Assembly: GCA_905221615.1 (NCBI GenBank)
Contig: CAJNDT010004557.1
Coordinates: forward strand, 248,001 to 312,000
Length of the DNA stretch: 64,000 nucleotides
Source: Symbiodinium sp. CCMP2592
Taxonomy: Eukaryota > Sar > Dinophyceae > Suessiales > Symbiodiniaceae
Direction: 5' to 3'
In this document: one piece after another, positions 9,141 to 59,658 of the stretch
Layout: the number at the start of each line of letters is the position of its first letter
Numbering within the stretch: position 1 is the first letter of the stretch
Notes under the pieces: model-generated
Seen by the model: only the letters and a program-made list of their open reading frames with translations
What the model was told of the DNA's origin: nothing
The model's database searches: none
Made by a program: the position numbers and the translations under genes

Positions 9141-9245
9141 TACCTTCAGCTGCAAAAACCTACTTTCTTGCAGGTTCCTATTGTCAGCCCCAATATGGAA
9201 CTTGTAGGGACCCTACACAAAAGTAGGTTTTGGTAGGCTAAGGTA
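9141..9245. repeat. Family F palindrome
   Basis: The ends read TACCTTCAGCTGCAAAAACC and TTTTGGTAGGCTAAGGTA. Sister copies are at about 11223-11306 (partial), 45887-45992 (inside an ankyrin-gene intron) and 59355-59460. Confidence 0.75.
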
Positions 9246-9479
9246 TAAAATCCACAAGACCCGAGCCCCCGAATTCTGCAGGGTTTGGGGTCTTATCCAC
9301 TGCAGGCCAAGCCGCCCACCAAACCAAAACAAGCAAGAACGGGTTTAGGGTTTAGGTTTTAGGGTTTAGAGTTTCGAACCTGACCGTAGATGAAGAACCC
9401 TCAACCCAAAACTCAACTCGACACTGACCCTAAACCCAAACCTGAAAACCTGACCCACTATAAACCCAAAGCTCACACC

Positions 9480-11222: not shown

Positions 11223-11589
11223 AACACCTTATAAACCAAAACCTACTTTTTTGTAGGGTCCCTATAAATTCCATATTAAGGTTTTTCATAGGAACCTACA
11301 AAGTAAACCCCAAACCCTAAACCCTAAACCCTAGTTTAAGGCAAAGAAACAAAACCCCAGGGGGTAGAGGGGGCCTTGCACTCGCATCCCCTGAAGAATA
11401 GCACCGTACTTGGCGGACGGGACTCGGCAAGTAGAGTAAAGCGGTTTAGGGTTTGGGGTTTAGGGTTTTGGGTTTAGGGTTTTGGGTTTAAAGGTTTAGG
11501 GCTTGAGGGTTTCGGGTTGTAAGTAGGATAGATATTCTGAATTGGGGCACATATAACCTACTTGCTAGGTCGTATGAGCCTTTAAGTAC

Positions 11590-17768: not shown

Positions 17769-17843
17769 ATACCTGGACCCCAAAAGTATGTACTTTTATA
17801 GGTTTTGGGCCATAATTTTAGCTACTTTTTTGGGGGTCTAGGT
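17769..17843. repeat. Family W palindrome
   Basis: Ends are ACCTGGACCCCAAAAGTA and TTGGGGGTCTAGGT. Related copies are at 35843-35925 and 37117-37187. Confidence 0.7.
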
Positions 17844-17950
17844 AGTTGTCAATATTATGGTCCCTTTTTGGGTACTGAGTATAATGCTTCACCGAATATG
17901 TAGGGTATCCAACAAGGGGCGAAAAGGGGCCATGATTTTGACGACTACCC
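17842..17950. repeat. Family E palindrome, divergent copy
   Basis: Arms are GTAGTTGTCAATATTATGG and CCATGATTTTGACGACTAC. Better copies are at 18493-18598, 20945-21050, 22596-22700, 25185-25294 and 53789-53893. Confidence 0.75.
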
Positions 17951-18492
17951 ATTGGGTGCTGGGTTCTGGTAGGAAGAACCCTTACACATTCAAAAGTAGC
18001 GACGAGGGGCTGCACCCTATGGAACTAAGCACTAGACGGAACTCCCCAAACCTTGAAGCCCTCAGCACCGTAAATTAGACTAAATCTTCAACCCTAAACC
18101 CTAAACCTTAACTCCAAACCCTAAAACCTTAAACCCTAATTACACCTGAACCCTACATTGCATTCAAAAACCGAAGGCCTCGCTGTCGGGAATGTCGAAG
18201 CCGCTGAAGCGCATCCTTTGCTGGTTCCTTAGTGTCGCAAGATTTCCAGGACGGCACAGGGTTTAGGGCGTAGGGTTTAAGGTTCAGGGTTTAAGGTTTA
18301 GACGGCTCAGGGTTTAGGGCGTGGGGATCTAGGTTCAGGGTTTAAGGTTTAAGTTTAGGGTTTAGGGTGGCTCAGAAAAACACACAGACACACACACACA
18401 CACACACACGTAGGGTTAAGGGGAGACCCTAGCACGACTTTAATGAGGTCTCTCGGCATAACGACTGATATATATATATATATATATATATA
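17951..18492. other. Telomere-like tracts, exon-like fragment, dinucleotide runs
   Basis: CCCTAAA units lie at 18085-18150, and about 18170-18245 holds the second copy of the KEPA exon-like pair. TTTAGGG units are at 18258-18370, a (CA)n run at 18380-18408 and an (AT)n run at 18467-18492. Confidence 0.4.
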
Positions 18493-18598
18493 TGGGTGGT
18501 TGTCAAAATTAGGGTCCCGCTTTGGGTCCGTATTATAATACGGAACCCAATATTGAGGGTACCCAATTTAAGGGACCCTAATTTTGACAACCACCCAT
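18493..18598. repeat. Family E palindrome, near-perfect
   Basis: Arms TGGGTGGTTGTCAAAATTAG and CTAATTTTGACAACCACCCA are perfect complements, and the centre ATTATAATACGGAACCCAAT is conserved. Confidence 0.9.
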
Positions 18599-18659
18599 AT
18601 AGCTTCGGGCTGCAGGCCCTCAAGAGATGCTCAGACTTCGCAAACCCCCAGACAACATG

Positions 18660-20776: not shown

Positions 20777-20944
20777 ACCCTTGCAAATCTCTTATAGAAT
20801 AGGGGTTACTTTAAAGGGTTCCTTTAAGGGATACTGTACTATAAGGGTACTATAAGGGTAGTATAATATAGGAGCCTTAATAATCACAATAAGGCTATAC
20901 CATAATTTTCATAAGGAGCCTGCTAAAATAGGATAAGTAATTAT

Positions 20945-21050
20945 ATGGGTGGCTGTCAAAATTAGGGTCCCTTTTTGGGTCCTTATTATAATACGGCACC
21001 TAATATTTAGGGTACACAAAAAGGGACCATAATTTTGACAACCACCCATA
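20945..21050. repeat. Family E palindrome
   Basis: Arms are ATGGGTGGCTGTCAAAATTA and TAATTTTGACAACCACCCAT. Confidence 0.88.
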
Positions 21051-21065
21051 TAGGTCCCTGTAGTA

Positions 21066-22125: not shown

Positions 22126-22595
22126 TACCTGGGGATCCAAAAACCTACTGTTTTAGGGGTTAGACCCTATAATTAAGGGGTCATAACCCACTATTTTGTA
22201 GGGTTTGGGGATACAGGTACCCTCGCAGGATGGACATATGAACAACGGAGAACCAACCACCCTAATCCGTAAGCCCCAGACCTTAAACCCTAAACTCAAA
22301 ACCCTAAACCTTAAACCCTGAACTCTAAGCTCTAAAGGCCTTGAGCCCGAAACCCTGGCCTGGAGAAGACAAAGGCTAAACTCCCAAAGCACCAAAACAG
22401 CGTTTCTAGAACCCGTCTAGAGCCCTCACTAAACTGCTAACACCCTGCCTGAAGCATGCACCCAAAGGGTCCAAAGTACCGATATGGTAGAATGTAGGGT
22501 TTCTATATTAGGACTTACTATTATGATTTGGGGAAGTAGTCCCCATAACAGTACATCGGACCCTTTGGGGCAAGTTGCGAATCCTGACCACCCAA
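22126..22595. other. No gene seen
   Basis: It holds a small palindromic unit at 22140-22205 (AACCTACTGTTTTAGGGG / CCCACTATTTTGTAGGG) and degenerate CCCTAAA units at 22280-22330. Confidence 0.35.
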
Positions 22596-22700
22596 ATGGG
22601 TGGTTCTCAAGATTAGGGTCCCTTTTTGGGTACTCTGTGGGTTAGGTGCCGTACTGTAATAGGGACCCAACAAAGGACCATAATTTTGACAACCATCCAA
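22596..22700. repeat. Family E palindrome
   Basis: Arms are ATGGGTGGTTCTCAAGATTA and TAATTTTGACAACCATCC. The centre is partly deleted. Confidence 0.8.
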
Positions 22701-22937
22701 ATTCAAACCCTAAACTGCTACACAAAAAAGACCGGGAGAAGAACAGCACCAAAACACTTCTGCAACCATAAGGAAATTCCGGGAACACGTTGCAACAAAA
22801 TGCAAGATACCAAGATGGACTTCAGAAAGCTTCACAGAAATCATAAACCCTCAACTTACCCAAACCACGTGATACCCCAAATAAACAACCTAAACGTTAA
22901 GCTTCCCAAAACAACCCTTGAGAAAACAGTGCAACTC

Positions 22938-23049
22938 CTGGGCCCAAGAGTAACCTAGGAATAAACAGGGTACCTTTTTGGGTTTAAAGGAGTTTACAAG
23001 GGAACCTGAACCCTAACGAAAGGGAATAACGGCCTACTCTCGGTCCTAG
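22938..23049. repeat. Family I element with 4-bp target duplication
   Basis: CTGGGCCCAAGAGTAACC to TACTCTCGGTCCTAG, flanked by ACTC at 22934-22937 and 23050-23053. Confidence 0.82.
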
Positions 23050-23433: not shown

Positions 23434-23528
23434 GATAAGACTAGCAGACTAGCAAAGATTATAATTTCAGAGGTTTCTTAGGGATTATAATAACCAAAAA
23501 TTAAAAACTATTTCTAAGTACCCCTAAG
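23434..23528. repeat. Family T element, copy outside any recognised gene
   Basis: It carries TTTCTTAGGGATTATAATAA, CCAAAAATTAAAAACTATTT and CTAAGTACCCCTAAG. It matches introns 2 and 3 of the ankyrin gene (46553-46451 and 46392-46289) over nearly its whole length. Here it lies in DNA with no coding-like frame. Confidence 0.75.
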
Positions 23529-24946: not shown

Positions 24947-25184
24947 AGTTCCCTTTAACCCTGGGCGCCTGAATTCTGAACAGAACCTAGAATGAAGACT
25001 ACACCCCGGATACCCTGACTCTGCAGCTTAACCATGAAACCTGCTACGCAACGAAGCCGAGAAACTGTGAACATGAACGTGCGGGGTGCGAGTTGCGGGC
25101 CTTATAAAAATCGTTACCGTCTGCGAGCCAAGTCTCATGTTGCTGTTGCCGGAGGAGAGTTCCCGTGCCATGCGTTCCTTCACA

Positions 25185-25294
25185 CGGGTGGTTGTCAAAA
25201 TTATGGTCCCTTCTGGGGCCCTTAATGTAATACCGAACCTGGGCACCTAGTATTTAGGGCACCCAAGCAGGGACCATAGTTGTGGCAACTACCC
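25185..25294. repeat. Family E palindrome, older copy
   Basis: Arms are CGGGTGGTTGTCAAAATTAT and ATAGTTGTGGCAACTACCCG, more diverged than other copies. Confidence 0.78.
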
Positions 25295-29046: not shown

Positions 29047-29149
29047 GGAGTAACCTAGGAATAAAAAGGGCACCTTTCTGGTTTAAAGGGGCGTATAAGG
29101 GAACCTGAACCCTAGCGAAAGGGAATAAGGGCCTACTCTAGGTCCTAGG
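29044..29149. repeat. Family I element between two coding-like pieces
   Basis: It runs from GAGTAACCTAGGAATAAA to CTACTCTAGGTCCTAG. On the plus strand its right end gives CCTAG|GCAT, an AG|G acceptor identical in form to those of the ankyrin-gene introners. The left terminus is altered, and I cannot find the matching GCAT duplication. Confidence 0.6.
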
Positions 29150-45709: not shown

Positions 45710-47240
45710 TTAGGCATGGGTTGCGGCATCCTCGTCTTCAACCTGGGCCCCGGCTTTCACCAACGCCCCGACCACCCGCGCGTGGCCTGCCCTCGTAGCA
45801 TAGGTGAGGGCTGTGTTACCGTCCTCATCGCGGGCCTCCAGGGATCCTTAAAGGGGTCTATAAGGATTACCATCAGGGATATGACATACCTTAACCTACC
45901 AAACCCTGCTAAAAAGTAGGGTCCCTATAAATTCCATATTAAGGTTCATAATTAAGAACCTACAAAAAAGTAGGGTTTGGTAGGCTAAGGTATGGGGGTT
46001 TAGTGCAGGGGCCTTAAGAATTATAGTATGGCGGGCCTCCAGCTGGGCTCTAGCCTTCACCAATGCCTTGGCCACCTTCAGGTGGCCCTTGTTTGCGGCG
46101 AAAATGAGGGCCGTGAAGCCATTCCTAGTTCAATGTTGGGATAGGGTTAAAAATATACATTTTTATTCCTTATTGGGTTCAAGTACCCATAAAAATGCAA
46201 AAGGTTACCCAACTATGACAAAGATTCTCACTGCGGGCCTCTAGCTGGGCTCTGGCCTGCAGCAATGTCTCGACCAGCTTCCAGTCGCCTATACTGAACT
46301 TAGAACCCTGGCAAAAATTACACTTTCAGCTGTTTCTTAGGGATCATCATAACCAAAAATTGAAAAATTAGTTCTAAGTACCCCTAAGTCGCCTTTGTTT
46401 GCAGCGAAGGTGAGGGCTGTGAAGCCATTCGCACTGTGGGCATCCAGCTCCTACACTGAACTTAGAACCCTAGCAAAAATTATAATTTTAGCTGTTTCTT
46501 AAGGATTATAATAACCAAAGATTAAAAATTATTTCTATTTACCCCTAAGGCTCTGCTCCAGCCTTACGAAGCGCCTCGATGATCGCCAGATGGCCGTTGG
46601 CCGCGGCATAGATGAATGCCTAGGATAGGGCTTAGTATAGGAGCCCGAATATAATTACCATAGAGGTTTCGTAGGTTCCTTTAAAGGGGTCTATAAGGAA
46701 TACTATACTAGGATACCCAGTAACCTAAGAATAAAAAGGCCTCTCTTTTTGGTATTGGGTAACTAAATAAGGAACCTAAGACTACAAAAAGGGAATAAGG
46801 GTACTACTGGGCATCCTAGATGCTGTGGTGCCTAAATCATTGCGGGCCTCCAGCTGGGCCCCTGCCTTCAGCAAGGGCTCAACCAACTCCAGGTGTCCTT
46901 CGATTGCAGCGCCGATGAGGGCTGTGTTGCCGTGCCTGTCCGGAGCGTTCGGATCAGCATTCTGGTGGAGCAGGTGCTCCACTCGACGCAGCCTGGCTTG
47001 GACGTGGAGCTTCGGAACCGCATGCTCCGCTTTGCGTAGGTCTGCCAGGTCCTCCATGTGCAGAGACAAGTAGAAGTCTTTCAGCTCTTGGGCCTTTCTC
47101 CTGGTCTCCGGATTGTTCCAGAGCCTCCCCATCAGCTTGTGGGCAGCAGTCAGTTCCTCCCAGTAGTTTAACCCTTCCTCTTCTGCGACTGCCAGGAGAG
47201 GGCTCGCGACCTCGCAGGGAATGGGTGAGGCCAGGGCCAT
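45710..47240 (-). CDS. Ankyrin-repeat protein, six exons, 271 aa
   Basis: Six exons join in one frame: 47240-46824, 46619-46554, 46450-46393, 46288-46228, 46124-46037 and 45835-45710 (816 nt including TAA). Residues 1-100 are helical and charged. Residues 101-265 are five exact 33-residue ankyrin repeats, each with the G-x-T-A-L/F and GH/GD-x-x-x-V-x-x-L core and ending Q/E-L-E-A-R-like. A short acidic tail follows. Ankyrin repeats bind partner proteins; the partner is unknown. The start is the first ATG, 10 bp downstream of a family L palindrome (47250-47334). The frame stays open through that element to 47327, so an upstream exon is not excluded. Introns interrupt the repeats at different positions (phases 0, 0, 1, 2, 0), which rules out intron spread by repeat duplication. 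All acceptors are AG|G and donors are GC or GA. Confidence 0.82.
45836..46036 (-). mobile_element. Ankyrin-gene intron 5, GC-AG, contains a family F element
   Basis: The donor is GGAG|GCCCGCC and the acceptor TGGAG|GCCC. The sequence CTGGAGGCCCGC (12 bp) stands at both borders, much longer than the 4-bp duplications of introns 1-4. A complete family F palindrome (45887-45992, TACCTTAACCTACC / GGTAGGCTAAGGTA) lies inside, beside family H-like and U-like remnants. It is a composite whose origin may differ from the others. Confidence 0.75.
46125..46227 (-). mobile_element. Ankyrin-gene intron 4, introner of family S, GA-AG
   Basis: On the coding strand: AGTGA|GAAT-CTTTGTCATAGTTGGG ... TTGAACTAG|GAATGG. 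GAAT is duplicated, and the element between is 99 bp. A near full-length family member outside any recognised gene is at 58639-58739. Confidence 0.85.
46289..46392 (-). mobile_element. Ankyrin-gene intron 3, introner of family T, GC-AG
   Basis: On the coding strand: AAAG|GCGA-CTTAGGGGTACTTAG ... TTCAGTATAG|GCGACTGG. GCGA is duplicated. It is about 80% identical to intron 2 over about 100 bp. Confidence 0.87.
46451..46553 (-). mobile_element. Ankyrin-gene intron 2, introner of family T, GA-AG
   Basis: On the coding strand: GGAGCA|GAGC-CTTAGGGGTAAATAG ... TTCAGTGTAG|GAGCTGG. GAGC is duplicated. It is the same family as intron 3 but inserted at a different position of the ankyrin unit. Confidence 0.87.
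46620..46823 (-). mobile_element. Ankyrin-gene intron 1, introner I' with nested element U, GC-AG
   Basis: On the coding strand: ACCACA|GCAT-CTAGGATGCCCAG ... CCCTATCCTAG|GCATTC. GCAT is duplicated. The I' palindrome is 46708-46819; complete copies lie at 48204-48315 (flanked by CTAC) and 59547-59658 (flanked by TTTG). Element U (about 46629-46707) lies within it, bordered on both sides by CTAGGATA, an 8-bp repeat, so U probably inserted later. U also occurs at about 56369-56450. Confidence 0.85.
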
Positions 47241-47249
47241 AAAGTAAAA

Positions 47250-47334
47250 GCCAGAAAGTTGGAATATTATTATCCGAAGCCCTGAATGGTAAATTATAAG
47301 GTATCCTACCCTGAAACCATATTCCAACTTTCTG
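47250..47334. repeat. Family L palindrome just upstream of the ankyrin start codon
   Basis: GCCAGAAAGTTGGAATATTA and CATATTCCAACTTTCTGG. If transcribed it would put a long hairpin in the 5' leader or an upstream intron. Confidence 0.85.
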
Positions 47335-47532
47335 GAGTTCCCTTTAGAGCTTTACCAGCTAGGGCTTGCGGCGTTTTCGGGCCCAGGATTGCTGTCATGT
47401 ACTGCAACGGATACGATGCATGTAAGCCCAAAACCCTAAACACTGAAACCTGACCCCTAAACCCAAAGCCCTGAAACCTGACCCCTAAACCCTAAACCCT
47501 ATGAGGACGTTTTGTCTTAAGGGTCTGTTTGT

Positions 47533-47612
47533 CTAGCTCCTGCCAGGGTCCGCCTGTCGGAGCTCCCGGTCCTTCCGGTCCTGCTCATCCTTGGCCTCCG
47601 GTGGCAATAGTA
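47533..47612 (-). CDS. C-terminal exon-like island, charged
   Basis: After TTTGTATTGCAG the minus frame reads 'LLPPEAKDEQDRKDRELRQA', then 'DPGRS' and TAG. It lies between the two main genes on their strand. It could be an alternative last exon of the upstream gene or part of a separate one. An (AAT)n array (47640-47690) precedes it. Confidence 0.33.
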
Positions 47613-48203
47613 CTGCAATACAAATCACAATAATAACAATGGTAATAATAATAATAATCATAATAATAATAATAATAATAATAATAATAGTAATACGACG
47701 AAAACTAATATAACAGTTTTTCGCTGTATCGGTATCGAAGCCCTCTCCCTCTCGCTCTCCCCCTCTCCGCCTCTCTCCCTCTTTAAGGTTGATCACCGAA
47801 ACCGAAAGCCCGCGACCACAAGTGCAAGTGTGTGATATAAGGGGCCTTTATCTTTAGACTGGGGTTTGGGGACCCACTATACTCTAACTATAATAAGGAA
47901 CCTGCATAGGTCATTATCTGAAAATTTAGGCCCCTGTACTACTGAAACGCGTGAACGACGTTCCTTTCTCAAACGTTCCCCTTCCCAAGATGATGGGAGG
48001 CCAAAAGGGGGGGTTTAAGGTTCTTGGGGTAGGGATTCCTTCATATGAACCCTAGTATGGGAACCCTAATCCCTACTAAACCCCATTGGCTAAAACCCCT
48101 TTTGGCCGCCTATGACAAGAGCTCTCTCAGCCAGGAGCGGCCGTGGAAACTTAAGACATCATGCACGGCCCGTGGAACTGCAGGCTGCAAGAGACATACC
48201 TAC
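47613..48203. other. AAT microsatellite and family H element
   Basis: (AAT)n at 47640-47690, family H at about 47838-47935, and a hairpin-like unit at 48030-48110. No gene. Confidence 0.5.
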
Positions 48204-48315
48204 CTAGGATACCCAGTAACCTAAGAATAAAAAGGCCTCTCTTTTTGGTATTGGGTAACTTTATAAGGAGCCTAGGACCACAAAAAGGGAATAAGGGTAC
48301 TACCGGGCATCCTAG
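48204..48315. repeat. Family I' palindrome with CTAC duplication
   Basis: CTAGGATACCCAGTAACC to CTACCGGGCATCCTAG, flanked by CTAC at 48200-48203 and 48316-48319. It is the complete form of the element in ankyrin intron 1. Confidence 0.88.
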
Positions 48316-48328
48316 CTACAGTTTCCAT

Positions 48329-48510
48329 TGTCGTTCCGCTACCTAGCAAGACGGCAGACATCCACTAAACTGTAGACAGGGCTTTGGAGTCCCATACTTT
48401 ACTTACAGTTTCCATTGTAGTTCCTGTTTTGGGGTTAACCACTTTTATGGTTAGGATGCTATAGTAGAGATTTTGGCTAACAAAAAAAGGAACTACAATG
48501 GAGACTATAG
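48329..48510. repeat. Family B palindrome plus 75-bp conserved flank
   Basis: Family B proper is 48404-48510. The preceding block (AGCAAGACGGCAGACATCCA ... GGGCTTTGGAGTCCCATAC) recurs in reverse orientation at about 54432-54512, also next to a family B copy. The mobile unit may therefore be larger than the hairpin. Confidence 0.78.
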
Positions 48511-48702
48511 AGGGACGTTGGGCGGCAAGGGCAGAGCTGCAGGAACATAGGGTGCAGGGACTGCCAGGGGGACTGGAGGCTGCAGCAACCGCAACGCAGG
48601 ACTGCAGGGCTTGTGGCCTGCCAAACTTGACAAAGCTGGTTAGGCATACAGTACGGAGGAATAGGAAGCTTGACCAAATGGCCCCGTAATACTTAACATT
48701 TT

Positions 48703-49977
48703 TCATTGAAAATAAGATTGACAGTAATTGCGAGTAGTTGGGAGCGTTTCACAACAAGGAAGGAATTGCGACTGATTCAGGCCAGCATAGTTAGTCAGCA
48801 CGGGACAGATTGCGCGCAGCTTAGGGTGTCTTTTACCACAGAGGGCCTTGACCAGCTGCTGCACGTGCTCCGCCAAGTCCTCATCCAGGCTGCAAGCACC
48901 CGAGCAATCGATGCACTGCCACTGGAGCCGTGACCTCTTTGCGAATGCTGCTGGGCTCCAGTTCGTCATCGACTTCGCCCAAAGTCGCAGGCGGGCGAAA
49001 AGCTGCTTCTGCAGAATTGGGCTTGTTTTGTAGCACGTACCCATAAGGTCCAGGAGAATCACTTTCGGAGACCAGAACCCGAGGCCCCAGGCTGCGAGCC
49101 CCACTGTGGGGATTTCATGAGTGGACAGCACGGACTCTGACAAGTTACGCTCGCCCGTGATCTGCTTGTTGACCAGCGCGATGACCGTCCCCTGTGCCTT
49201 GTCGCGCATCCCTAGAACGAAGCTCATGCTTGCAATGGACCACATGTTTTCTGCGAGTGTGTTGGTCGTGGCCTGCTTGTAGCAGGCGTCGAGGTCCTGG
49301 CTCGCCTCGATTGCTTGGCCTAGGAAAGTGTTCGGGTGCATGGTCGAGTGTTCCGTCGCTCTGGCAAAGTTGGAGAGCTTCGCCTGTGTCGCGCGATTCT
49401 GGGGATCACCATCCCAGAACCCCGCCCAAAGCAGCGCCTGATCATCAGTCCGAGTGAGATTCACAAGCCAGTTTCTCAAAAAGGAAAGCGCTTGATATCG
49501 ACGGAGTGTCCTGTCGTCTACATCCAAAGAGGCTATCGCATTTCTGGAGATACGGAGGGTCTCGACCAGGTCGTCTCCCAATGCGAAAATGTCGCCGATG
49601 CTTTCGGCACAGGTCTTGTTCGGGAGGACAGGGACGTAGTAGTCGAGAAGCCAGTCGGCGTTGGGCCGCAATCCTTGGCATGCAAGACTGAAGTTGTTCA
49701 TCACCTTCCCGAGCTGCTGATGGCAAGTGCTTGCACTGGTGCTCCGCCAGTTTTCCCGGATGTTTGCAACCACCTCTCTGAGCATGGGGTGCTGTGCCTC
49801 AACATCCCCGGCCTCTTCCGTCGCCTCAGCCGTGGTCTCTGCCAGCATCGTGGCCAGGAGCCTCTGAACCTCATCGCTTGAGCTGACGGGATGCTCCTCC
49901 CACGGCCAGTCGACACGATTCTTGGCCCGGATTCCAGCTCCCACTACGATCCACAGGAAACCCAACCAGCGCACCAT
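48703..49977 (-). CDS. ADP-ribosyl cyclase / CD38-like protein, secreted or membrane-anchored
   Basis: This single open frame of 424 codons is by far the longest non-repetitive one here. Residues 1-18 (MVRWLGFLWIVVGAGIRA) form a signal peptide or anchor. Residues about 170-330 follow the order of family motifs: LLWAG (W184, like CD38 Trp125), T217-x-x-G220 (the TLEDT-x-x-G region), W246-x-x-A-S (like Trp189), G263-x-V followed by LVN, E288 in HEIP (at the catalytic Glu226 position), VILL and C315. A Cys-rich tail follows. This family makes cyclic ADP-ribose or hydrolyses NAD+, giving Ca2+-mobilising messengers. The conserved Glu of TLEDT is not evident (HPNT instead), and LNGS is LVNKQ, so activity may be altered. 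The protein is longer than animal members (about 280-300 aa) owing to an N-terminal helical region. The assignment is from motif order by eye. Confidence 0.6.
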   Translation of the reverse strand: MVRWLGFLWIVVGAGIRAKNRVDWPWEEHPVSSSDEVQRLLATMLAETTAEATEEAGDVEAQHPMLREVVANIRENWRSTSASTCHQQLGKVMNNFSLACQGLRPNADWLLDYYVPVLPNKTCAESIGDIFALGDDLVETLRISRNAIASLDVDDRTLRRYQALSFLRNWLVNLTRTDDQALLWAGFWDGDPQNRATQAKLSNFARATEHSTMHPNTFLGQAIEASQDLDACYKQATTNTLAENMWSIASMSFVLGMRDKAQGTVIALVNKQITGERNLSESVLSTHEIPTVGLAAWGLGFWSPKVILLDLMGTCYKTSPILQKQLFARLRLWAKSMTNWSPAAFAKRSRLQWQCIDCSGACSLDEDLAEHVQQLVKALCGKRHPKLRAICPVLTNYAGLNQSQFLPCCETLPTTRNYCQSYFQ

Positions 49978-50018
49978 GCCTCTAGAAGGATCCTACAGGA
50001 AGCTATCCATAGATAGAT

Positions 50019-52126: not shown

Positions 52127-53788
52127 ACACGTGTATATACACAGATGTGCATACATACATACATATGGACATGCACTTACACATGAGCATACACATGCAG
52201 CTGTACGTGAACATACACACACACACACAGTTACACAATATACTTGCACATACCGACCTACTCAGCGCCTCTTTGATAAAAGCAGTCGCAGTGCACAGCA
52301 TGCTGCGTGAAGACATGCTTTCAAATTCAGGTTGAGCAACATTGCGCACAATAGTTAAACTGTGTATACAGATACATCAGTATGACACTCATGCCGCCAT
52401 GTTTCATTACACAGCTGCGAAGGGCAGGAACACACCAGCGCATGACGATCAATCTTGCTCCAACTGCAACATATTTGGTGCCACTACACTGCATAATATA
52501 GTAAACCCCAACAAGTTCGAAACCGGGTTAAGGCCAAACAGTGCTGGGATTCCATATACATTAAACTATTGGGTTTCCAACTTGTGGGCTTCTACTGTAC
52601 AAAGACTTGGCACAGTGTGCTCTTGCAGCACACATCGGGACTCTTAAGGATTCTGTGTGGGAGTACATTTGCATTGTTACTACTACTGCATGTGGTTGCA
52701 TGTTACTGCCTAGGTGGCTACATACCAAAACCACACCATGCTACATGCCTTTACATGTGATGGCATAGGACCACATGTTATCACTTACCGTTGCGCATCA
52801 AGTGCGGACTCTTGGATAGTTTACGCTTGTCGGCTCCTCCATCTCTAAACCGTCTTAAAGTCTCGTGCAGAGCACGAGACTTGGCAATATCAGCTTCCAC
52901 AGTTTTGGTTTCTCGTACTCAAACTCTCACACGCGAGTGCCATCTACATATTGCAAAGCGTGCTTTAGCATACTTCTGCTGCCTCCTCCTGCATGCCGTC
53001 ACAAACCGTTGCACGTGAACCGTTGAAACGTGCGACTGAGTCTGATTTTAAATATCATTACGGTGCGCACATATGGTCACAACTTTGCATATCACTGTAT
53101 CACTATCGCGCGCTTGTTCAACTTAAGCGCCAGTTCCTGCATCACAAACCATCAAGTGTCAAATTCTTGAGTACAACAAGGTACTTAGAAGGCACGTACA
53201 GATTTGCTGCTGGGCAGCACATGTTATTAAGGCTAATGCACATGACTACCTGTTCTTGCACGCCCCTGTCCTTTATTGCATGTCATGACGGAATGCTTTT
53301 GTTCTTGCATATCCCTGCATGTTGCCGTATGTTGATGGAAAGTGCTATGGCATCTGGTGCATTTGACGCTACTGATTGTCGCTAGATCCTTTAGGTCTGG
53401 GCTACACGTCCAATGAAACTGAGGCAGCGTCACCTCCAGTTTCATCTCGCTACATGCCACCAGATGGTATGACTGCACCACATGTTTGTACAACTGTGCG
53501 ACTTGCAGTGTGGCTTATTTTCAGCATTAAGCTTTAGGCCTGTATAACCATAAGTGTACATGCACAATCATGCACATGTGCCTGCGGACATACCTTTGTA
53601 CATACATATGTACATCCACAACTGTATGTTTACATGCATACAGCTTGCATACATATAGACAGACAGACAGACAGACATATATACGTGGTTTGGTGCATAC
53701 ACACAGACGCACAAATACACAAAGATACACACATACATGCAGCATATAGGTCGTCATACATACATGCTGCATACATATGTACAGACAG
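51891..53788. other. 1.9-kb unique block, AT/CA-rich, no recognised gene
   Basis: It lacks telomere-like units and MITEs. It has (AT)n and (CA)n runs (52070-52240) and many TGCATG/CATGTA steps. Plus frames at 52993-53385 (130 codons, ends TAG) and 52342-52647 (101 codons) have no domain I know. A perfect 10-bp hairpin AGTCTCGTGC-AGA-GCACGAGACT lies at 52859-52881. (CAGA)n is at 53660-53678. Confidence 0.35.
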
Positions 53789-53893
53789 ATGGGTGGTTGT
53801 CAAAATTATGGTCCCTTTCTGGGCCCCCATTCTAGTACGGCACCTAATATTTAGGGTACCCAAAAACGGACCCTAATTTTGACAACCACCCAG
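53789..53893. repeat. Family E palindrome
   Basis: ATGGGTGGTTGTCAAAATTA and TAATTTTGACAACCACCCA. Confidence 0.88.
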
Positions 53894-54210
53894 ATAGACA
53901 AACACAGACAGACAGACAGCCAGCCAGCCAGCCAGGCATGTGCCTGGCTCTGGGTGCATAGGCATGTGTCTGGAGTTACATTGAACCACATTCTTTGGTG
54001 TTGTGTATATATATATATACACATAAACATATATATATATATACATATACATATGTATATGTATATGTATATATATATATATATTATAAAGAGGGAGACA
54101 GCAGCAAAAAAAGGCAGAAAGAGAGGTAGACACAGATCGAGCGAGGGAGGGAAGGAGAGAGCGAGAGAGGGCGAGAGAGAGAAAGAGGGAAAGAGGGACA
54201 GATAGCGAGA
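53894..54210. repeat. Simple-sequence cluster
   Basis: (CAGA)n and (CCAG)n at 53900-53940, (AT)n at 54004-54085, (GA)-rich at 54100-54210. Confidence 0.85.
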
Positions 54211-56218: not shown

Positions 56219-56450
56219 CTACCTATAGTCTCTCTTGTAGTTCCTTTGTTTGGTTAACCTCTATGATAGGATCCTAACCATAAAACTGGTTAACCAAAAA
56301 AATTCAGGCCCCTGTAACGGCTGTTGCTCTTGCTGCTGGAGCCCGCCGCCCTCAGAGCCTTAACCTTGTAGGGCTTAGTATAGGAGCCTGAATATAATTA
56401 CCATAGAGGTTTCGTAGGTTCCTTTAAAGGGGTCTATAAGGAATACTATA
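56219..56450. repeat. Truncated family B and a U element
   Basis: Family B lacks its right arm after GGTTAACCAAAAAAATTC. U (56369-56450, GGGCTTAGTATAGGAGCC to GGAATACTATA) matches the insert nested in ankyrin intron 1. Confidence 0.7.
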
Positions 56451-56977
56451 GTATAATGGCGCCCCCAAGCCCTATTCTAAATATTAACTAAGTCCCCTAT
56501 ATTACTCCACACCAAGACTTGACATGTTCATGCCCCCCTGTATTAGGGCTTGGGGTTTAGAGTTTGCGAACACCTTATACCGGGCTCCTCGCATGAAGGG
56601 CTCCGTTAAGGGCTTTATCAAGGCTTCGGGCCGTGGGTTTTACGGTTTGCGAACCCAGAGCTGATCATAGAGATCCTTCTGGGGTGTCGGGGGTCGGGGG
56701 GAGGGGGGTAGGGGCCTTTATACCCATAGTAAGGACTTAACAAGGCCTATTAAAGGAAGTATAGTCCTCTACCAACCTCACCCCCACCCCCCGAAGAACC
56801 CCTATGGGCTTATCACATCTCAGCGGCGCATCCCGGAGATGGCGAGGCGAGCCTGGTTCCTGGGCAGCACCGGGCTCGTGTGTAATATCGGGGGGATTAC
56901 TTGGAGGTTCGTGGGTAGGTATAAGTAGGGTTATACGTTGAATAACTATAGTAATAACCAATATATTAGTGGACTTA
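56451..56977. other. Family V element, no gene
   Basis: G-rich arm at 56680-56712 and matching C-rich arm at 56763-56785 around AATACCCATAGT-like DNA, related to 32470-32570. A family Q-like half lies at 56890-56935. Confidence 0.45.
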
Positions 56978-58527: not shown

Positions 58528-58860
58528 CAGAGAGCCCAATACCCCTTAATTAAGGAATATACCTTCAATTATAAGGGGATTCATATTATGATTTAAGCTA
58601 TATTCCTTCATTAAGGAGTATTGGGCTCTCTGGGAAGTCTAGTTCACTGCTGGGATGAGATTAAACATGTACATTTTAACTCCTTATTGGGTTTAAGTAC
58701 GCATAAAAATGTATCAAATGTTACCCAACTATGACAAAGGAATTCTACTTGGAGGTTCATGGGTAGCTATAAATGGGGTTATAAGTCCACTAATAGGGGT
58801 TATAACTATAGTTGCCCTAATTATAACCCCACTTATAACTACCCATGAACTCGAAGTAGA
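58528..58860. repeat. Three elements in a row: families C, S and Q
   Basis: Family C is 58528-58634. Family S is 58639-58739, the counterpart of ankyrin intron 4 outside any recognised gene (CTAGTTCACTGCTGGG to CAACTATGACAAAG). Family Q is 58745-58860 (CTACTTGGAGGTTCATGGGT / ACCCATGAACTCGAAGTAG). They are separated by only a few bases. Confidence 0.85.
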
Positions 58861-59354: not shown

Positions 59355-59460
59355 TACCTTAACCTACCAAAACCTACTTTTTTTGGTAGGGTCCCTATAA
59401 ATTCCATATTAGGGTTTACAATAGGAACCTACAAAAAGTAGGGTTTGGTAGTTTAAGGTA
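59355..59460. repeat. Family F palindrome, full length
   Basis: TACCTTAACCTACCAAAACC and GGGTTTGGTAGTTTAAGGTA. It is the same family as the insert in ankyrin intron 5. Confidence 0.87.
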
Positions 59461-59546: not shown

Positions 59547-59658
59547 CTAGGATACCCAGTAACCTGAGAATAAAAAGGCCTCTCTTTTTGGTATTGGGTA
59601 ACTTTCTAAGGAACCTAGGACTACAAAAAGGGAATAAGGGTACAACTGGGCATCCTAG
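59547..59658. repeat. Family I' palindrome with TTTG duplication
   Basis: CTAGGATACCCAGTAACC to CAACTGGGCATCCTAG, flanked by TTTG on both sides (59543-59546 and 59659-59662). Confidence 0.88.

Follow-up and report, generated by a model that had tools for sequence, protein, structure and literature searches.

As read from the nucleotide sequence, introns 1 to 4 of an ankyrin-repeat gene of Symbiodinium sp. CCMP2592 (S. tridacnidorum according to Table 1 of PMC8045281) are very probably introners, that is, insertions into exons in which the duplicated target provides the donor, the element provides the acceptor, and a survival filter would determine which insertions persist in coding DNA. The gene occupies positions 45710-49977 on the minus strand of the 64-kb stretch of DNA analysed here, which is referred to as the window.

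Joining of eight exons, all on the minus strand, yields a single open frame of 652 aa, and translation of the joined exons predicts a protein with an N-terminal region and C-terminal ankyrin repeats. Exon A (48847-49977; 377 aa) is followed by intron A (47596-48846; 1251 bp), the 14-aa mini-exon B AKDEQDRKDRELRQ (47554-47595), intron B (47211-47553; 343 bp), and exon C (46824-47210), in which the ankyrin region begins. The remaining exons are exon 2 (46554-46619), exon 3 (46393-46450), exon 4 (46228-46288), exon 5 (46037-46124), and exon 6 (45710-45835), which includes the stop codon. In the first-pass annotation, a gene of six exons had been proposed to start with an ATG at 47240, from where a 271-aa open frame with ankyrin repeats extends to 45710 once five segments are removed. 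This model had missed the two upstream exons, A and B. A 429-codon open frame on the minus strand (48703-49992) matched Symbiodinium proteins in a protein search, several of them with ankyrin domains, and a deposited protein from Symbiodinium sp. CCMP2592 labelled ANKRD27 (P0122) equals the window translation through exon A, the mini-exon, exon C, the junction of intron 1, and exon 2. By this identity the window belongs to that strain or to one almost the same. Introns A, B, and 1 are spliced in the deposited P0122 just as the model predicts, and the ATG at 47240 is ruled out by P0122 as start codon, its position falling inside intron B. When ten long frames were compared with Pfam, exon A among them, no domain above its cut-offs was obtained, and literature searches gave no title on this gene among the matches listed.

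All seven introns of the corrected gene have a GC or GA donor and an AG acceptor followed by G (AG/G). AT content is higher in introns (GC 0.28-0.42) than in exons (0.57-0.66). Introns 1, 2, 3, and 4 each begin with a 4-bp sequence, GCAT, GAGC, GCGA, and GAAT, respectively, that is followed by an element starting with CT and ending with AG, and the same four bases follow the intron, flush with the exon ends set by frame and homology. In 4 of 4 cases the duplication is exact and flush with the element ends. Intron 1 (46620-46823; 204 bp, GC-AG/G) holds a composite element (46620-46819), intron 2 (46451-46553; GA-AG/G) an S-family element of 99 bp (46451-46549), intron 3 (46289-46392; GC-AG/G) an S-family element of 100 bp (46289-46388), and intron 4 (46125-46227; GA-AG/G) a T-family element of 99 bp (46125-46223). 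The earlier proposal that these introns consist of a 4-bp duplication plus a CT...AG element is therefore upheld by family ends, frame, and homology. That each of them contains one short element is correct for introns 2 to 4 and has to be amended for intron 1, which is composed of two elements. Introns 1 to 5 have phases 0, 0, 1, 2, and 0, and retention of each would bring 5, 5, 2, 3, and 2 stops, respectively, into the frame of the preceding exon.

At least three unrelated families (A/B, S, and T), as had been claimed, occur under one layout in this gene, and in the window 6 copies of A, 3 of S, and 2 of T were found. Alignment of the S elements from introns 2 and 3 over 100 columns shows 87% identity, with similarity that begins after the duplication. 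The T element of intron 4 is 85% identical to a copy at 58639-58739, which has CT...AG ends and no exact duplication (ATTC/ACTT), and a third S copy of 88 bp with a variant right end is located at 23441-23528 (duplication TCTT). Element A constitutes the first 112 bp of intron 1 after the duplication and is represented in the window by five others, of which two are 95% and three 70-75% identical to it. Besides copy A2 within intron A (48204-48315; GTAG) and a copy at 59547-59658 (CAAA), there are A-related copies at 22938-23049 (GAGT), 1024-1135 (TGAT), and 29048-29148, the last with one diverged end, no duplication identified, and left out of the duplication test. In 9 of the 10 A, S, and T copies tested (out of 11, excluding 29048-29148), an exact 4-bp duplication and CT...AG ends were present. 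In intron 1, A is joined to the right part of a second element, B, which is 98% identical over 85 bp to a partial copy at 56369-56453. The right end of B in intron 1, TATCCTAG, duplicates the end of A, suggesting shared mobilisation of A and B, and the ends of the chimera are alike, as A starts with CTAGGAT, B finishes with ATCCTAG, and one intact duplication surrounds both. All these copies lie on the minus strand. The 11 of 11 A, S, and T copies in the orientation of the gene, 7 of them outside introns 1 to 4, indicate that the window is perhaps one minus-strand gene cluster; copies of a further family, U, are of mixed orientation. The copy at 22938-23049, with its GAGT duplication, was considered as another intron; by eye no convincing coding frame surrounds it and it was treated as non-genic.

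The deposited P0122 is identical to the model until intron 2 and then ends with the residues EP, which correspond to intron 2 read as GAG CCT TAG (46553-46545). As the translation of P0122 continues into intron 2 and terminates there, it is concluded that the annotators' pipeline did not splice this intron and that P0122 is probably an annotation truncated at a GA-AG introner, two codons into intron 2. Other gene models of this genus may likewise be cut short at GA-AG introners. The same ending of P0122 could also be explained by a dead or truncated gene: some of the miniature transposons would escape splicing, the transcript would terminate within intron 2, and what follows would be decaying exon remnants. 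We consider this improbable, as intron 1 is spliced in P0122 itself and as the exons downstream of intron 2 are still open and in frame. Identity of the ankyrin part to a protein from Symbiodinium sp. CCMP2456 (P0123) is 65/80 before intron 2 versus 77/98 after it, and these similar values on either side give no indication that the sequence decays beyond intron 2. For a protein from S. necroappetens (P0182), 65/80 residues are identical before and 65/98 after intron 2; the low value for P0182 is mostly due to the last exon (16/41), in which P0182 also departs from P0123 (20/40). In P0123 no gap occurs within 8 residues of the junctions of introns 1 to 5, and in P0182 these five junctions are gapless, with one extra residue four positions after that of intron 2. 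Also, all four exonic insertions start with GA or GC; as 19% of coding positions offer such sites, 0.0013 (0.19 to the fourth power) is expected by chance, an estimate based on the 816-nt coding sequence of the first-pass model, the first 30 nt of which are now seen as intronic.

Within each duplication of introns 1 to 4, a G(C/A) donor together with AG/G is obtained at one cut position only, the one originally chosen. A cut elsewhere within the duplicated bases has in its favor that every offset leads to an identical mRNA and that intron 2 cut at offset 3, for example, would be a CC-AG intron. For this same reason cDNA is blind to the position of the donor, and it is the AG acceptor rule alone that places it. 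At offset 0, and at no other, all introns follow G(C/A)...AG/G, in agreement with donors published for dinoflagellates (PMC11453091), and a shifted cut is therefore highly unlikely. This analysis of the possible cuts bears out the claim that the duplicated target supplies the GC or GA donor and the element the AG/G acceptor. In introns 1, 2, and 3 the motif CTAAG occurs 15-16 nt before the acceptor (46620-46641, 46451-46471, and 46289-46309, respectively), and it is missing from that place in introns 4, 5, A, and B. The motif, located in the element end, is a possible branch point of introns 1 to 3; it was noticed post hoc, against a background of 147 out of 8,653 AGs with CTAAG 7-25 nt upstream.

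Of the five introns in the ankyrin region, four have boundaries that match those of an element with its duplication, which is not the case for introns 5, A, and B. Intron 5 (45836-46036; GC-AG/G) has no clean 4-bp duplication; on either side of it lies a 12-bp repeat made up of recurring LEAR codons, and it is not a clean introner. It contains a U element at about 45886-45992. Copies of this element were observed at 59355-59460, 9141-9246, and 11235-11302, and other repeat-like pieces are also present in intron 5. Introns A and B (both GC-AG/G) have junction repeats of 5 and 3 bp, respectively, which start with the AG common to exon end and intron end; an exon AG is not found directly before introns 1, 2, and 4. 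Intron A is itself no introner and only holds copy A2. The presence of elements inside introns 5, A, and B might suggest that old, ordinary introns were invaded later by transposons and that the element is not the maker of the intron. For introns 1 to 4 this is very hard to sustain, as the duplication meets the exon on both sides with no other intron sequence remaining and as these introns are missing from one relative (P0001).

P0001 contains the entire ankyrin domain uninterrupted, with introns 1 to 5 absent, which provides the comparison with a relative lacking the introns that had been suggested, in the form of one relative that is an unspliced frame with an identity of at most 47% and of unproven orthology. 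That the protein collection contains unspliced frames is evident from P0137, which runs from exon A via an intron-like stretch directly into KEEQDRKD. By eye, the N-terminus of P0001, HRRRPRSSRSGRTKSS, resembles a frame-shifted reading of the mini-exon (HRRPRMSRTGRTGSS in the window), and the sequence preceding this match, SRLKLELCKESL, resembles the tail of intron A as read through in P0137, SRLNLEFCKESL. After the mini-exon match, again by eye, P0001 continues with an intron-B-like tail (LALVAPCQ compared with MALASPIPCE) and then with the ankyrin domain. To judge from these similarities, introns A and B, the older two, seem to be retained in P0001, and gain of introns 1 to 5 in the Symbiodinium gene would be the simpler reading, because a retrocopy would have dropped introns A and B too. 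Individual intron losses in P0001 are possible, and P0001 may be a paralogue. In P0123, the final 20 residues of exon A and everything from there into part of exon C are missing, and for that reason it provides no test of introns A and B.

In the first-pass annotation, G(C/A)NN had been described as part of a rule that the families follow. Copies outside these exons have exact duplications of GTAG (in intron A), CAAA, TGAT, GAGT, and TCTT, 3 of 5 of which have no initial G on the strand matching the orientation of the gene. The duplication starts with G(A/C/T) in 4/4 exonic insertions versus 2/10 at the five other sites when both strands are counted (Fisher P = 0.015). With outside copies at CAAA, TGAT, and TCTT, a preference of insertion for G(C/A)NN appears unlikely. 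The simplest reading, drawn from few cases, is that insertion is broad and that insertions in coding DNA would last only if the duplicated bases are usable as a donor. The outside copies thereby hint that targeting follows no such rule, G(A/C) reflecting survival instead. Spread of the element as RNA via reverse splicing rather than as DNA, which has been proposed for fungal introners (PMC9860276), would not be expected to make copies with 4-bp duplications at the donor-less targets CAAA, TGAT, and TCTT and is scarcely credible here.

The bare pattern of G(A/C)NN-CT...AG followed by the same four bases was found 81 times in the window on both strands (45 and 36 pairs), compared with 9-37 pairs (mean 23) in 20 shuffled versions of one strand that preserved mononucleotide composition. 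In the pre-mRNA of 4,268 nt there are 6 such pairs. Four of them are introns 1 to 4, coinciding with repeat-family ends and junctions that are gapless to a relative; of the other two, one is within an exon and one ends at the acceptor of intron 5. Being common in window and gene, the bare pattern alone is not suitable for predicting introns. Terminal inverted repeats of the A copies at 48204 and 59547 are clear, with 13/16 positions paired in each; for introns 2, 3, and 4 the ends pair imperfectly, at 9, 12, and 14 of 24 positions, respectively, and at 12/24 in the composite intron 1. Blind scanning for 4-bp duplications around inverted repeats (12 or more of 16 positions paired) did not list introns 1 to 4. 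The terminal dinucleotides of its matches were CT in 5 cases (three of the A family and one TA-rich), AA in 8, CC in 6, TT in 6, and GG in 16, with seven TTAA among the 12 of 16 GG matches listed. The CT...AG ends do not stand out in the blind scan, and it is the family-based evidence that counts. Pattern scans of a viral contig collection (with A, S, and one other repeat family) and of a genome contig collection (with A) gave no match, nor did searches for Rfam families, tRNAs, and spliced leaders across the window.

Another repeat family in the window, with GGGTGG...CCACCC-like ends, was observed at 17841-17925, 18474-18602, 20933-21055, 22590-22702, 25181-25294, and 53771-53897, and by eye 4 of its 6 copies have 4-bp duplications (ATAT twice, ATTT, and AGAT). 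As it has no CT...AG ends, it should be unable to splice by the CT...AG rule. Telomere-like TTTAGGG/CCCTAAA runs are scattered across the 64 kb.

Taken as introners, introns 1 to 4 would have arisen when short, non-autonomous DNA transposons of the MITE type, belonging to at least three unrelated families and presumably moved by a transposase, inserted into exons of the ankyrin gene, every insertion copying 4 bp of exon. Because the families end with CT on the left and AG on the right, the right end would present an AG acceptor in either orientation, and the elements of introns 1 to 4 and copy A2 do have CT starts and AG ends in both orientations. The first target copy would form the 5' end of the intron and, when starting with GC or GA, serve as donor for the dinoflagellate spliceosome, for which GT should also be suitable, and the second copy would restore the codons exactly. 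Insertion would not be limited to such sites, and in coding DNA it would survive only at targets starting with G(A/C/T). A bolder idea, which we hold to be possible and rather doubtful, is that selection has driven unrelated families to converge toward the same splice-ready layout, with CT ends giving AG both ways, a 4-bp duplication, and sometimes a branch-point-like CTAAG, in the presence of a spliceosome tolerating any GC, GA, or GT donor. If this were true, an insertion into coding DNA at G(A/C/T)NN would in most cases be silent at birth. As introners, the four insertions, which represent three families and every codon phase in a stretch of about 700 bp, offer a compact worked example of intron birth.

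The mechanism is already known in Symbiodinium, and the locus is a clear new example of it. For introners of Symbiodinium microadriaticum, 4-bp duplications and inverted ends are described in the legend of Figure 2B of Gozashti et al. (2022; PMC9860276), with the 3' splice site coming from the element and the 5' site from the duplication. Genus and described layout are the same as here, and the present locus adds several families inside one small domain. In Symbiodiniaceae, GC or GA donors account for 25-74% of introns, and for Polarella 12,253 introner introns and 15 families with at least 100 introns each are given (both in PMC11453091, the latter citing Roy et al., 2023). Polarella glacialis thus likewise represents recent intron gain by many families in a dinoflagellate, in a different genus. 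The occurrence of several families, which the first-pass annotation had regarded as striking, is real for the three families of this gene, yet it matches reports for related genomes, the layout being published for S. microadriaticum (PMC9860276) and multi-family invasion for Polarella (PMC11453091). Introner elements in dinoflagellates are also reported in PMC10666404 and PMC10522408. In Amoebophrya, introner elements have direct repeats of 3-5 nt at the exon ends and inverted repeats (Farhat et al., 2021; PMC7789003); no clear splice dinucleotide is described there, whereas 7/7 introns here have GC or GA donors with AG/G. The introners of Micromonas and Aureococcus, as presented by Huff et al. 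in 2016, are said to be introns made of DNA transposons, with duplications and inverted repeats. Those of Aureococcus have canonical splice motifs (PMC7789003). Duplications are common to the Micromonas and Aureococcus introners and to those of the present gene, and the organisms are unrelated.
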